DNA of 64,000 bases, from assembly GCF_019145375.1 (NCBI RefSeq), contig NZ_JAHSTX010000001.1, positions 719,001-783,000 on the forward strand, written 5' to 3'. Each line of letters begins with the position of its first letter. The first letter of the stretch is position 1. Origin of the DNA: Pseudomonas triticicola. GTDB taxonomy: Bacteria; Pseudomonadota; Gammaproteobacteria; Pseudomonadales; Pseudomonadaceae. The notes below the pieces were generated by a model, which saw only the letters and a list, made by a program, of their open reading frames with translations, did no database searches and was not told the DNA's origin. Both the position numbers and the translations under genes were made by a program. Below are positions 23,254 through 37,330 of this stretch, piece after piece.

Positions 23254-23298
23254 GGGGATTGTGTATCGTGGCTTCGGGTTCACGGATTGGAAAAGTGC

Positions 23299-24390
23299 AT
23301 GTACACCTCAAGATTGATCATCGCCCTCGGCGCCGTGCTGCTGCTCGCCGGTTGCGCCAGCCAGCGCAGCAACGAACCGGCGCCGCGTCCGCCGGCTGAA
23401 GTGAAGGCGGAAATCGTTCGGCTGTTGCCGGCGAAAACTGCCGACCGTCAGGGCTGGGCCACGGACATCTACGCCGCGTTTGCCGCACAAGGCATCAGCA
23501 CCACCACGCAGAATCTGTGTTCGGTACTGGCCGTGGCCGAGCAGGAGTCCACTTTCCAGGCTGACCCGACGGTGCCCGGCCTGGGCAAGATCGCCCGCGA
23601 CGAAATCGATCGCCGCGCCGCCAAGGTGCACATCCCCAGCCTGCTGGTCAGCGGCGCTCTGCAAGTGCGCTCGCCCAACGGCAAGAGCTACAGCGAACGT
23701 CTGAATGCGGCGCGCAGTGAAAAAGAGCTGAGCGCGATTTTCGACGACTTCATCGGCATGGTGCCGATGGGCCGCACGCTGTTCGGCGGCTTTAACCCGG
23801 TGCACACCGGCGGGCCGATGCAGGTCAGCATCGAATTCGCCGAGGAGCACGCCAAGGATTACCCGTACCCGGTGGACGGCACGATTCGTCGTGAAGTGTT
23901 CAGCCGGCGCGGCGGCATGTATTTCGGCATCGCCCATTTGCTCGGTTACCCGGTGAATTACCGCGAGCCGTTGTATCGTTTCGCCGATTTCAACGCCGGC
24001 TGGTACGCCAGTCGCAATGCCGCGTTTCAGAATGCGGTGAGCCGCGCTTCCGGCATCCCGCTGACCCTGGACGGCGACCTGATTCGCTACGACTCGATCA
24101 TGCCCGGCAGTACTGAACTGGCGGTGCGCACCCTCGGCAAGTCGCTGGGCATGCGCAACCCGACGATTCGCGATCAACTGGAGAAGGGCAAAACCCTGGA
24201 ATTCGAAGAGAGCAAACTCTATCAGCGCGTGTTCGAACTGGCGGAGCGGGCCGAAGGCAAGGCGTTACCGCGCGCGGTATTGCCGGGGATTGTGCTGCAG
24301 AGTCCGAAGATCACCCGCAAACTCACCACAGCCTGGTTCGCCAAGCGCGTGGACGAGCGCTACAAACGCTGCATGGCCAAGGCCGGATAA
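23299..24390 (+). CDS. DUF1615-family lipoprotein
   Basis: A 363-residue predicted lipoprotein. The signal MYTSRLIIALGAVLLLAGC gives a lipobox cysteine at residue 19. The body contains VLAVAEQESTFQADPTVPGLGKIA, which looks like the catalytic-glutamate region of a lysozyme-like/transglycosylase fold, and long helical stretches characteristic of DUF1615. It could act on peptidoglycan in the periplasm (inference). ATG 23299 is in a poor ribosome-binding context; a TTG four codons upstream is the alternative. A terminator follows directly. Confidence 0.78.
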   Translation: MYTSRLIIALGAVLLLAGCASQRSNEPAPRPPAEVKAEIVRLLPAKTADRQGWATDIYAAFAAQGISTTTQNLCSVLAVAEQESTFQADPTVPGLGKIARDEIDRRAAKVHIPSLLVSGALQVRSPNGKSYSERLNAARSEKELSAIFDDFIGMVPMGRTLFGGFNPVHTGGPMQVSIEFAEEHAKDYPYPVDGTIRREVFSRRGGMYFGIAHLLGYPVNYREPLYRFADFNAGWYASRNAAFQNAVSRASGIPLTLDGDLIRYDSIMPGSTELAVRTLGKSLGMRNPTIRDQLEKGKTLEFEESKLYQRVFELAERAEGKALPRAVLPGIVLQSPKITRKLTTAWFAKRVDERYKRCMAKAG

Positions 24391-24403: not shown

Positions 24404-24432
24404 AAAAAACCCGGCTGCGGGAGCCGGGTTTC
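24404..24432. terminator. Bidirectional rho-independent terminator
   Basis: AAAACCCGGCT-GCGGG-AGCCGGGTTT, an 11-bp GC-rich stem with A residues on the left and TTTCTCT on the right, placed between the convergent DUF1615 gene and the repeat-protein gene. Confidence 0.85.
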
Positions 24433-24460: not shown

Positions 24461-24979
24461 TCAGGCAACACGGCGTTCGATCAGACGATCCGAACCGCCT
24501 TCTGCAACGCGACGTTCGATCAGACGATCCGAACCGCCTTCTGCAACGCGACGTTCGATCAGACGATCCGAACCGCCTTCTGCAACGCGACGTTCGATCA
24601 GACGATCCGAACCGCCTTCTGCAACGCGACGTTCGATCAGACGATCCGAACCGCCTTCTGCAACGCGACGTTCGATCAGACGATCCGAACCGCCTTCTGC
24701 AACGCGACGTTCGATCAGACGATCCGAACCGCCTTCTGCAACGCGACGTTCGATCAGACGATCCGAACCGCCTTCGGCTACACGGCGCTCGATCAGACGA
24801 TCCGAGCCACCTTCGGCAACGCGGCGTTCGATCAGACGATCCGAGCCACCTTCGGCCAGACGGCTTTCGATCAGCTTGTCCGAACCGCCTTCGGCGATCA
24901 TGGTGTGCGCCGGGGTGGCGGCGAAAGCGTTAACTGCGAAAACCGAGAAAGCGATGCTGAGAAGAGTCTGGCGTTTCAT
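24461..24979 (-). CDS. Secreted tandem-repeat protein (11 x 13 residues)
   Basis: A 172-residue protein of unknown function. A clear signal peptide (MKRQTLLSIAFSVFAVNAFA, cleavage after about residue 20) is followed by ATPAHTMI and then eleven consecutive 13-residue units. The first is AEGGSDKLIESRL and the other ten are AEGGSDRLIERRV, ending with one A. Each unit carries three acidic and three basic residues, so the mature protein is nearly neutral but highly charged. There is no cysteine and no membrane segment. ATG 24979 starts the signal peptide; the upstream frame to 25096 lacks any such feature. It lies 132 bp downstream of the anti-sigma gene on the same strand and may belong to that regulon. 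Size may vary between strains through repeat slippage. Confidence 0.82.
   Translation of the reverse strand: MKRQTLLSIAFSVFAVNAFAATPAHTMIAEGGSDKLIESRLAEGGSDRLIERRVAEGGSDRLIERRVAEGGSDRLIERRVAEGGSDRLIERRVAEGGSDRLIERRVAEGGSDRLIERRVAEGGSDRLIERRVAEGGSDRLIERRVAEGGSDRLIERRVAEGGSDRLIERRVA
24467..24895 (-). repeat. 39-bp coding minisatellite, 11 units
   Basis: Eleven in-frame 39-bp units make up the body of the secreted protein gene. Seven consecutive units (24474-24746) are identical base for base, while units nearest the signal peptide carry synonymous and a few non-synonymous changes. The pattern points to recent expansion at the 3' end of the gene. There are no spacers, so this is not a CRISPR array. 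Confidence 0.95.
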
Positions 24980-25111
24980 GATGGTGTGCTCCGGGGTGTT
25001 GTTGGTTGGTATGGAGCTGATGTTACGCCCGGGATTTTTTATGAGAACTTCATTGCCGTGATGGTGAACATCGACGTCGCTGATGGTTGCGGACAACCGC
25101 GTAGCAGAGCC

Positions 25112-25804
25112 TCAGAGCACCTTTACCGCACGCCCGATCGCCTGAATCGGCCCGGTCGGTTTGCCGATCGGTGAGCCGTTGGCGCCTTCCAGCGTCAGCT
25201 CAAACAGCTGGTTCGGCTGCAACGGCGGCAGTTTGTCCAGCGGCACCGACAACGCCTGCCCCGGCTTGACCAAGCCCAATGAAACCGGCCCCGACCAGCC
25301 GTCAGCCTTGGTCCAGAACTCCAGCGCCTTGTCCGCCGGCACCTCGACCACTCCTAACGGGATCAACTGGATCTCCCGCGCATTGCTCGCCTGAATCACC
25401 CAGCCCGGCGCTTTGTCCTGCGGCGCCACCAGCACCACCAGATAACTCGGTTTCGGCGCAGTCTGGGTCAGAAGCATCGTGCCGAGGATCAATGTCGCCG
25501 CCAGCCCGGCCGCGCTCAAGCCGCGCCACAGTGGCAGCAGGTTCCACCACGAAGTCAGTGGTTTCTTCACCGTCAGCCGTTCGAGACTGCGCTCGATGCG
25601 CGGCCATAACTGCGCCGAGGGTTGCTGAGGTTCGGCCAGATCGGTCAGCTCCAGCAGACGCCGCTCCCAGGCATCCACCGCTGCACGCAATTCGGGATCG
25701 TTCGGCAGGCGCCGTTGCACCTCGATGCGCTGCTCGAACGATAAGGTCCCGAGTACGTATTCGCCGGCCAGTTCATCCCGTTCCTGCGCTGATTCGCCGG
25801 TCAT
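25112..25804 (-). CDS. RskA-like anti-sigma factor
   Basis: A 230-residue single-pass membrane protein. The N-terminal cytoplasmic anti-sigma domain (about 1-85, DELAGEYVLGTLSFEQRIEVQRRLPNDPEL) is followed by a transmembrane helix (about 110-130, LSAAGLAATLILGTMLL) and a periplasmic RskA C-terminal domain (GWVIQASNAREIQLIPLG to IQAIGRAVKVL). Start ATG 25804 overlaps the sigma factor's TGA (ATGA), the usual coupling of SigK/RskA-type pairs. It should sequester the ECF sigma factor at the membrane until regulated proteolysis. Confidence 0.87.
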   Translation of the reverse strand: MTGESAQERDELAGEYVLGTLSFEQRIEVQRRLPNDPELRAAVDAWERRLLELTDLAEPQQPSAQLWPRIERSLERLTVKKPLTSWWNLLPLWRGLSAAGLAATLILGTMLLTQTAPKPSYLVVLVAPQDKAPGWVIQASNAREIQLIPLGVVEVPADKALEFWTKADGWSGPVSLGLVKPGQALSVPLDKLPPLQPNQLFELTLEGANGSPIGKPTGPIQAIGRAVKVL

Positions 25805-26328
25805 CCCATGCACTCCCGCAAAGCATTGAGGCTGCGCTTGATCCACGCTTTGACCGTGCCCAGCGGCGTGTCGAGGCGTGCGGAAATCTGCGCGTGGCTG
25901 TAACCGTCGACGTAGGCGTGGAGGATGCAGCTGCGCCGCTGCGGTTCCAGCTGCTCGAGGCAGCGATGAATGCGCGCCGAGTGAACATCGACCGCCTCAT
26001 CAGGCGCCGCTGACTCATGTTCTTCGCTGAACGGCGTTTCCCGACTTTGCTTGCGCAACTGATTCAACGCCAGGTGCCGGGTCACGCTGAACATCCAGCC
26101 CCGCGCCGAACCCCGCGCCGGGTCGAAGCCGGCCGCGCCGTGCCAGATCTTGATGAATGCCTCATGCACAATGTCCTCCGCCAGCGCCGTATCGCGCACC
26201 AGCCGCTTGGCCACGCCGAGCAGGCGCGGGCCTTCCTGCACATACAAATCGCGCAAAGCCGCGCGCTCGCCCCGGGCACAGGCGGCGAGGCGGGCTTCAT
26301 AATCGAAAACGGATTCGGGTAAAGGCAT
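25801..26328 (-). CDS. ECF RNA polymerase sigma factor (SigK-like)
   Basis: A 175-residue ECF sigma factor. Region 2 (about 20-90) has LYVQEGPRLLGVAKRLVRDTALAEDIVHEAFIKIWHGAAGFD and ARGWMFSVTRHLALNQLRK. Region 4 (about 115-170) has LEQLEPQRRSCILHAYVDGYSHAQISARLDTPLGTVKAWIKRSL. I chose ATG 26328 over a TTG three codons upstream. It is first in the sigma/anti-sigma operon. Targets may include its own operon and the downstream repeat protein (inference). Confidence 0.9.
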   Translation of the reverse strand: MPLPESVFDYEARLAACARGERAALRDLYVQEGPRLLGVAKRLVRDTALAEDIVHEAFIKIWHGAAGFDPARGSARGWMFSVTRHLALNQLRKQSRETPFSEEHESAAPDEAVDVHSARIHRCLEQLEPQRRSCILHAYVDGYSHAQISARLDTPLGTVKAWIKRSLNALRECMG

Positions 26329-26378
26329 GGGGTGCAATCTAGCTCACATTTCCCAAACATCCAGATGCATTGTTCCCA

Positions 26379-26467
26379 GTGGGAGCGAGCCTGCTCGCGA
26401 ATGCGGTGGGTCAGAAAGTAATAAGGCGACTGACACTCCGTCTTCGCGAGCAGGCTCGCTCCCACAG
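26379..26467. repeat. REPIN, GTGGGAGCGAGC family
   Basis: Inverted REP pair between the DUF3455 gene and the sigma factor gene. It separates the two transcription units on the minus strand. Confidence 0.92.
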
Positions 26468-26489
26468 GATTGTGCACTGCTTCCGAATA

Positions 26490-27011
26490 TCAGTTCGCCG
26501 CCCAGAAAATATAATCCGCCTGGTACTTCACCACTTCCTGCTTGCCCTTGTTTGCCATGGTGCACTCGCTGCCCGGCGCGACGCCGCCCTTGAGCGCGAC
26601 ACGCTGGATATAGCTGACCCCGGTCATCGCGCCTTTGCCCTCGGCCGGATTGGCCTTGACCAGTTGATAGGGCAGGTTGCCCGGGCTCGACGGTGCCACG
26701 GCCAATTGCGTGCCGGTGACTTTCGAACCGTCCTTGGCTTGCCAGGTCGCTGGCGGGCCGAAATAGGTGCCGACCTGTTTGCCGCTGCGATCATTGAGCA
26801 CCGCTTTCGGACCGACAAAGGTCCATTCGGTCTGCCCGGCCATATTGGGCTTGTCGCGGCATTCGTAGGTGATCTCGCCAACCCCGGTGGTTTCCAGGGC
26901 AATCTTGTGCCCGTCCGGCACCTTGATCGCGTCGGGATAACTGCTCTGGGCGAAGGTGGTCGCGGTGAAGGCGAGCAAACCGGTGAAGCCAATCAGCTGG
27001 GTGATGTTCAT
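26490..27011 (-). CDS. DUF3455-family exported protein
   Basis: A 173-residue protein with a signal peptide (MNITQLIGFTGLLAFTATTFAQ, cleavage near 22). The body has VPDGHKIALETTGVGEITYECRDK and FGPPATWQAKDGSKVTGTQLA, characteristic of the DUF3455 family of secreted proteins, function unknown. Two cysteines (in YECRDK and GSECTM) could form a disulfide. It precedes the ECF sigma operon on the same strand; whether it shares its regulation cannot be seen. Confidence 0.8.
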   Translation of the reverse strand: MNITQLIGFTGLLAFTATTFAQSSYPDAIKVPDGHKIALETTGVGEITYECRDKPNMAGQTEWTFVGPKAVLNDRSGKQVGTYFGPPATWQAKDGSKVTGTQLAVAPSSPGNLPYQLVKANPAEGKGAMTGVSYIQRVALKGGVAPGSECTMANKGKQEVVKYQADYIFWAAN

Positions 27012-28580: not shown

Positions 28581-28746
28581 GGCGGTTACTCAGGTGTTGT
28601 CGTTGTTCATCAAGCATCGTAGACGCAGCCGCGCAGAGCAAGGTGGCAAAGCGGCAGTTAGCGTGCAAAAAACGCCATTTGCCGGAAAAAACATCTTTGT
28701 ATCGGTAAATGAAGCATCTGTGGCCAAGGGATTTTATCTGTAACAA

Positions 28747-28890
28747 GGGTATTTATCTCTGGCAGAGGATTTATCTGTGGTGATGGGATTTATCTGTGGC
28801 GAGGGGATTTATCCCCGCTGGCCGCGAAGCGGCCCCGCTTTTAATGAAAGGGCCTGCTGCGCAGGCCAAAGGGGATAAATCCCTAGCCAC
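28747..28890. repeat. GGGATTTATC repeats: short tandem array plus inverted element
   Basis: From about 28747 to 28812, three to four imperfect 18-20 bp tandem copies of GGGATTTATCTGTGGCGA run into an inverted-repeat element (GGCGAGGGGATTTATCCCCG ... GGGGATAAATCC) reaching 28890. A second member of the inverted element is at 32675. The whole 28581-28935 gap (355 bp) contains no other recognisable feature apart from the polB leader. Confidence 0.75.
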
Positions 28891-32674: not shown

Positions 32675-32823
32675 TGTGGCGAGGGGATTTAGTGGCGAGG
32701 GGATTTATCCCCGCTGGGCTGCGAAGCAGCCCCAAAAGCCTGCAACAGAACGCTGTCTGATACAGCGCGTGTTGCAGGATCGGGGCTGCTTCGCAGCCCA
32801 GCGGGGATGAATCCCCTCGCCAC
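32675..32823. repeat. Inverted GGCGAGGGGATTTATCCCCG element
   Basis: The left arm has GGCGAGGGGATTTATCCCCG, then CTGGGCTGCGAAGCAGCCCC; the right arm is the near-complement, ending GAATCCCCTCGCCACA. The left end carries an extra partial copy (GTGGCGAGGGGATTTA), a small tandem duplication. Confidence 0.82.
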
Positions 32824-37104: not shown

Positions 37105-37330
37105 GATGTGGAAGTCCGGTTGTTCGGTTACATCCATCAATGTCTCAAAAGCGCATGTCGACGGGTTTTATGTCAACATCGCCGCGTTTTGGCGGCTGTG
37201 CGCAGGAGCACTCTCGAGTGCGCCGGGTATTGGTGGATTGGCCTGGTCTTCCACACCTGCGTACAGCTGCCACCCTCATGTGGAAGTGAGACAGGTAGTG
37301 TTTCCTACAATCCACAACGGTAATCAACAC
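37105..37330 (+). promoter_or_regulatory. Candidate structured leader upstream of the small-protein pair
   Basis: About 225 bp of gene-free DNA directly before the 109-aa gene. It contains GATGT...ACATC (37105-37134), a perfect hairpin GCACTC-TC-GAGTGC near 37208, and the decamer ATGTGGAAGT twice (37106 and 37278). I recall very similar sequence upstream of such genes in other pseudomonads, where it is often mis-annotated as short proteins. It could be a cis-acting RNA leader or an operator region; neither is established. Confidence 0.4.

Follow-up and report, generated by a model that had tools for sequence, protein, structure and literature searches.

A putative exported tandem-repeat protein of Pseudomonas triticicola lies behind a MexT-type promoter

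We analysed a 64,000-nucleotide stretch of the Pseudomonas triticicola genome (the window) that contains a gene for a repeat-only protein preceded by a MexT-type box. On balance it appears probable that this gene specifies a MexT-switched, Sec-exported tandem-repeat protein of the PA4881/PA4623 type that may act multivalently in the cell envelope. The box-bearing promoter is the best handle on function. The gene would represent an unexplained MexT output that most of the genus carries, frequently in more than one copy, and that is under selection with a rapidly changing array length; what a repeat-only exported protein contributes to defence against electrophile or redox stress is now a testable question.

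Results

Architecture of the repeat gene and its product

The translated frame comprises, in order, a leader, a linker, eleven contiguous 13-residue units and a closing alanine (Table 1). Units 2-11 all read AEGGSDRLIERRV, and unit 1 is a divergent copy (AEGGSDKLIESRL). TRF reported the array at positions 24465-24892 with a period of 39, 11.0 copies, 94% matches and a score of 695, a score that excludes chance. The leader pattern, MKR or MKx followed by a hydrophobic stretch, is seen again in the relatives of the window protein, and export of the protein is very probable. A previous sequence-only reading had described an exported, charged, repeat-only protein of eleven 13-residue units, and translation and TRF bear this description out, with the leader judged by eye and the first unit divergent. 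The three acidic and three basic residues that it counted per unit hold for the consensus unit, and its seven identical 39-bp units are found in a shifted phase, the number being six (units 5-10) in the AEGG phase. The hairpin 3′ of the stop codon is strong and is accompanied by a T run; a scan for consensus terminators did not list it.

Table 1. Features at and around the repeat gene (window coordinates)
Feature	Position	Strand	Basis
DUF1615 lipoprotein-like gene, convergent neighbour	23287..24390	+	domain search
Probable rho-independent terminator, common to the repeat gene and the convergent DUF1615 gene	24404..24430	-	-20.9 kcal/mol, z -4.55
CDS, 172-aa putative exported tandem-repeat protein, stop included	24461..24979	-	frame, translation, unit comparison
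Eleven 39-bp / 13-residue units	24467..24895	-	TRF and translation
Units 5-10, same DNA	24506..24739	-	unit-by-unit DNA comparison
Linker ATPAHTMI, 8 residues	24896..24919	-	translation
Signal-peptide-like leader MKRQTLLSIAFSVFAVNAFA, 20 aa	24920..24979	-	judged by eye
Probable -10 element TAACAT (conserved GTAACATC)	25020..25025	-	by eye in alignment
Wider conserved promoter element (GTTCACCATCACGGCAATGAAGTTCTC), overlaps box	25043..25069	-	upstream alignment of relatives
MexT-type box ATCAGCGACGTCGATGTTCACCAT, 0 mismatches, 81 nt ahead of ATG	25061..25084	-	pattern scan, own genome
RskA-type anti-sigma factor, upstream neighbour	25112..25846	-	domain search
ECF sigma factor (NF009189)	25801..26337	-	NCBIfam

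The DNA of units 2-11 varies at seven columns, every one of them a third codon position, indicating that the minus-strand frame is translated and selected. Among the 13-residue units of 64 repeat-protein sequences from the fetched loci, with duplicates kept, pN was 0.048 and pS 0.385 (pN/pS 0.125); by this measure the repeat unit is under purifying selection. A core of A-E-G-G-[SA]-D-R-L was nearly invariant among 435 such units and positions 9-12 were variable, with position 11 being R in 251 units and N in 126, which argues that RR is no conserved dibasic site. Consistent with this, a dibasic pair followed the core in 496 of 1219 units and in no counted unit of 70 of the 161 distinct proteins, and the notion of the terminal RR as a fixed dibasic site was abandoned.

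Relatives with flanks 95-98% identical to those of the window carry 10, 10, 8 and 8 units, compared with 11 in the window. By this comparison of copy number between genomes, which had been proposed beforehand, array length is changing fast, and the recent expansion or homogenisation suggested from the single array finds support in the differing unit numbers between near-identical flanks.

A MexT-type box at a conserved distance

The upstream regions of relatives align over a strongly conserved element that includes the pattern ATCA-N5-GTCGAT-N4-ACYAT. This pattern, which we take to be the long MexT box consensus, was fixed before scanning and is matched in full upstream of the repeat gene (Table 1); the sequence-only reading made no mention of it. 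The box of the window also matches ATYA(N7)YGAT, the MexT motif given in the available part of PMC11432991. Neither the box nor the wider element has a further copy in the window, and a sigma-70 scan detected no promoter at the repeat gene. Across the 5.8 Mb of the organism's own genome, 40 sites lay within two mismatches of the long box, compared with 2 for a reversed-pattern control. Perfect matches numbered exactly two and lay in the promoter regions of the window gene and its paralogue; of the two sites with one mismatch, one lies in the promoter of another, third family member. A ATETDPLFSDAVA-type member of the same genome has three mismatches, also at a distance of 81 nt.

For the box test, repeat genes needed an acceptable start and 150 nt or more of upstream sequence; after removal of duplicates, 163 distinct genes qualified. 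The best match had 0 mismatches in 46 genes, 1 in 46, 2 in 34, 3 in 22, 4 in 11 and 6-7 in the remaining 4, giving cumulative counts of 126/163 for up to two mismatches, 148/163 for up to three and 159/163 for up to four. Distances for the 126 boxes with two mismatches or fewer ran from 75 to 91 nt, and for 95 of these boxes they were 81-83 nt. When the reversed pattern was applied to the identical upstream regions, 0/163 came within three mismatches, while 14 of 2948 random stretches drawn from those loci, which may include boxes of other repeat genes, came within two. The 163 promoters are related by descent and hence are not independent samples.

The regulator and likely counterparts in P. 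aeruginosa

A 304-aa LysR gene of the organism's own genome stands divergent from a quinone-oxidoreductase gene, with a two-mismatch box between them, an arrangement that we take to be that of mexT and mexS. NCBIfam returned LysR and quinone-oxidoreductase matches for this pair, both below cut-off. In a P. aeruginosa-like genome (G551), 27 sites lay within two mismatches of the box, compared with 2 for the reversed control, and four of them were recognised: two repeat genes (two mismatches each), a PA4354-like gene and a PA2813-like gene, of which the latter two are, by eye, presumably members of the published MexT set. One repeat gene has an MFS gene (Pfam) and a CdrB-like gene as neighbours, and the second adjoins a bacterioferritin-like gene; from this synteny, judged by eye and not from locus tags, we take them to be PA4623 and PA4881, respectively. 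A search of the P. triticicola genome with a P. aeruginosa protein (P0151) returned the window gene at 41% and an E value of 2.0e-8, which the repeats may inflate.

According to the available part of PMC12607905, deletion of mexT in PAO1 changed PA4881 by -6.5 and PA4623 by -5.8 log2, and PA4881 ranks first in that part of the MexT-deletion table (Table 1), ahead of the MexEF-OprN pump genes. An enynone induces both genes along with other MexT targets (PMC10848761, excerpt), and loss of parS lowers the expression of both (PMC3848899, excerpt). The accessible portion of PMC3557286 describes PA4881 as uncharacterised and as encoding a tandem repeat protein controlled by MexT, and adds that PA2206 binds it as well and that neither pvdS nor PA4881 mutants were more susceptible to peroxide. 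The sequence-only reading could point to no characterised example of such a protein; this stands in that no function was found, but it overlooked that PA4881 was already in print as a MexT-controlled tandem-repeat protein.

The window gene resembles PA4881 and PA4623 in its Sec-type leader, in a MexT-type box at a similar distance and in repeats whose core is similar to A-[ED]-[GNS]-G-S-[DE]-[RQ]-[TL]. Unlike the window protein, PA4881 and PA4623 have three or four units of about 21-22 residues with His, Lys and Met (by eye), and their genes occupy different genomic sites; PA4881-type units as a class measure 21-23 residues. Since the synteny-based counterparts are MexT-dependent and tandem-repeat naming is already attached to PA4881, the window gene is best filed as the putative fluorescens-group form of a known, functionally unexplained PA4881/PA4623-type family, and it very probably belongs to the MexT regulon.

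Spread of the family and concordance between two genomic sites

Of 199 genomes of the genus that were sampled, 191 gave matches in a six-frame search; the genome of the window is one of these, and each matching genome has 1 to 13 matching stretches when pieces and other frames are counted in. At the level of the order, matches were found in 13 of 244 genomes and 6 of 112 genera. In genus g3 the window protein gave a match at an E value of 2.5e-10, which low-complexity repeats may inflate. Its paralogue in the own genome (C1:932715-933152) has nine units and 96% identity over the aligned part, and the same genome also has more distant family members with other units.

Among 161 distinct proteins the modal period was 13 residues in 138, 14 in 2, 15 in 9, 16 in 1 and 21-23 in 11, and on average 98% of the gaps within a protein equalled its modal period. 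The number of units ranged from 3 to 24, and Cys occurred in the mature part of 4 of the 161 proteins.

Searches with the flanks placed arrays at two sites, A and B: that of the window, beside DUF1615 and often an RskA-type gene (49 rows), and that of the paralogue, whose neighbours are chorismate-mutase-like and lipoprotein-like by eye (40 rows). These rows include some genomes fetched twice, and one is a split locus (L183). In the 14 genomes with both sites, the mean protein distance was 0.041 within genomes versus 0.119 between genomes at one site, and none of 5000 shuffles reached a within-genome distance that low. The means and shuffles point to homogenisation between the sites, although shared ancestry within clades is a possible source of the concordance, because the own site-B array was nearer to the own site-A array than to that of every other genome in just 2 of the 14 by protein (1 of 14 by DNA).

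Four repeat genes (L042, L062, L063 and L080), whose leaders or tails are of other types, had no MexT-type box. Of these, L042 lies in the own genome (C1:1153635-1154279) and encodes an exported-type protein of eleven-odd 13-residue units of another kind (AADGADRVGAGAV), the usual distance upstream being without a box. L062 and L063 encode 24 and 19 AEGGSDRLIERRV-type units, respectively, with another leader and C-terminal tail.

Proposed role and alternative readings

The structure prediction suggested by the sequence-only reading, run with AlphaFold2 on 28 aligned sequences, gave no secondary structure, a pLDDT of 40.3 and a pTM of 0.11. As evidence for disorder this is weak: the alignment contained many gaps, and not even the helix of the leader was recovered. 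The charge-hydropathy value of the window protein falls on the boundary (0.4161 vs 0.4156), and a disordered chain is weakly supported by these predictions.

In the mechanism that we propose, MexT, a LysR regulator, would sense redox or electrophile stress and switch on the repeat gene, whereupon the cell would export a chain in which the same charged, Cys-poor binding unit recurs many times and which would stay in the periplasm or envelope. The chain would be largely disordered and would work by multivalency, its many A-E-G-G-[SA]-D-R-L cores binding a single partner in the envelope or forming a shield for envelope proteins during the time that the regulon's efflux and detoxification arm is at work. 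Array length would tune avidity, and would be changed by slippage or unequal recombination. Multivalent weak binding or shielding would account for the fixed core with its variable spacers, for the variable number of units and for their uniformity. All steps beyond the MexT-type promoter, including that MexT drives the window gene, are ones that we infer; we give the disordered, multivalent mode a little less than an even chance, and a protective role of the protein is a tentative suggestion. Protectants of the LEA/hydrophilin type have short, charged, Gly-rich, Cys-poor repeats; the analogy is one of composition alone, and no sequence relation to the window protein is claimed. In a rather unlikely extension, MexT would trigger the export of a multivalent polymer, or of a store of peptides, whose units are homogenised across sites, lineage-specific and fitted to a partner that co-evolves with them in the envelope or outside the cell, and whose length is tuned by rapid expansion and contraction.

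Several other readings share part of this evidence. Were the exported chain a precursor cut into 13-residue signal or antimicrobial peptides, with MexT timing their release, one would understand the uniform unit length per protein (98% of gaps at the modal period), the uniformity of units within an array and their concordance between the two sites (0/5000 shuffles, 14 genomes), and the V/A boundary that ends each unit and the C-terminus. The period, however, ranges from 13 to 23 across proteins, no dedicated protease or exporter gene was found adjoining the repeat gene, and 70/161 proteins are without a dibasic pair. Of the cleavage into peptides envisaged by the sequence-only reading, simple dibasic processing is argued against by the non-conservation of RR, while cleavage elsewhere is unaffected, and we regard a peptide precursor as improbable. 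The repeat-only exported chain, its uniform period and relatives with arrays of up to 24 units would also suit a structural or matrix polymer, or a folded solenoid of the outer surface. Against this, AlphaFold2 yielded no fold, no solved structure was similar to the window protein at better than E 0.1, and arrays of 3 to 24 units with changing periods are unfit for a fixed solenoid, making such an architecture similarly improbable. That the array is a selfish or neutral repeat in a dispensable exported protein seems very unlikely: unit number does shift fast and unit sequence is variable, but the units appear to be under purifying selection, the family is near-universal in the genus (191/199 genomes) and the regulated promoter is conserved (a box with up to two mismatches in 126/163 genes).

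A PtrA-related periplasmic protein of metal stress, binding or buffering copper or zinc, was indicated by the NCBIfam model NF041599 (PtrA N-terminal domain), which scored 94.5 bits on the window protein with a cut-off of 31, and by AEGG[AGS]DR, a motif that PtrA-type proteins have in common with the family and carry directly after the leader. PtrA (PA2808) proteins are small, and the available parts of PMC8531726 and PMC7922089 describe PtrA as periplasmic and induced by copper and zinc. The 94.5 bits are, however, a sum over ten stretches, the best of which covers 12 of 46 positions, and when the own genome was scanned in six frames with NF041599, the window gene was not among the matches; as scored here, a single short motif carries the similarity to PtrA. 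Unlike the window protein, PtrA has a single motif and no array and is metal-responsive. In addition, the mature units are without Cys or His, and the conserved promoter element is of the MexT type and by eye unlike the CzcR motif GAAABCTWHGVGYAAY (PMC13209446), so that copper or zinc control via CzcR was rejected. A metal-stress function is therefore very unlikely, and the motif in common may reflect a common partner. The own genome also encodes a PtrA-like single-motif exported protein (L041, C1:1631094; 22.9 bits, below cut-off), whose gene adjoins one resembling a phosphoethanolamine transferase by eye.

Several family members are named 'phage infection protein' by NCBI. In Gram-positive bacteria, the protein classically known by this name is a membrane protein; a Pfam search of the window protein with E values up to 1 returned 0 families and no membrane-protein domain, and the distant family members gave nothing over cut-off, leaving the name unsupported. 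Linked to the family by name only, a P. fluorescens 'phage infection protein' gene was 32-fold up with Rhizoctonia solani (PMC5557065), and one with a Sec signal peptide was placed in the InvF regulon (PMC8490769); in expression studies the name is carried by the locus tags AL066_13550 (In5) and C0J56_00080 (2P24). RTX repeats were dismissed by eye, and a literature search gave no paper for the unit strings and none, among the papers listed, for 13-residue repeat phrases.

Neighbourhood of the repeat gene

Directly upstream of the repeat gene, positions 25112-27011 (minus strand) hold genes for an ECF sigma factor, an RskA-type anti-sigma factor and a DUF3455 protein. Control of the repeat gene by this adjoining sigma factor was rejected, because the promoter element is single-copy in the window and the paralogue site has other neighbours. 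An Rfam search found no RNA element at the repeat gene. Further along the window, Rfam identified a C4 antisense RNA at 37185-37277 on the plus strand (55.2 bits, gathering 45), which is presumably a phage-type immunity RNA, and short tandem repeats at 28716-28813 and 32676-32707 have GTGGCGAGGGGATTT in common.
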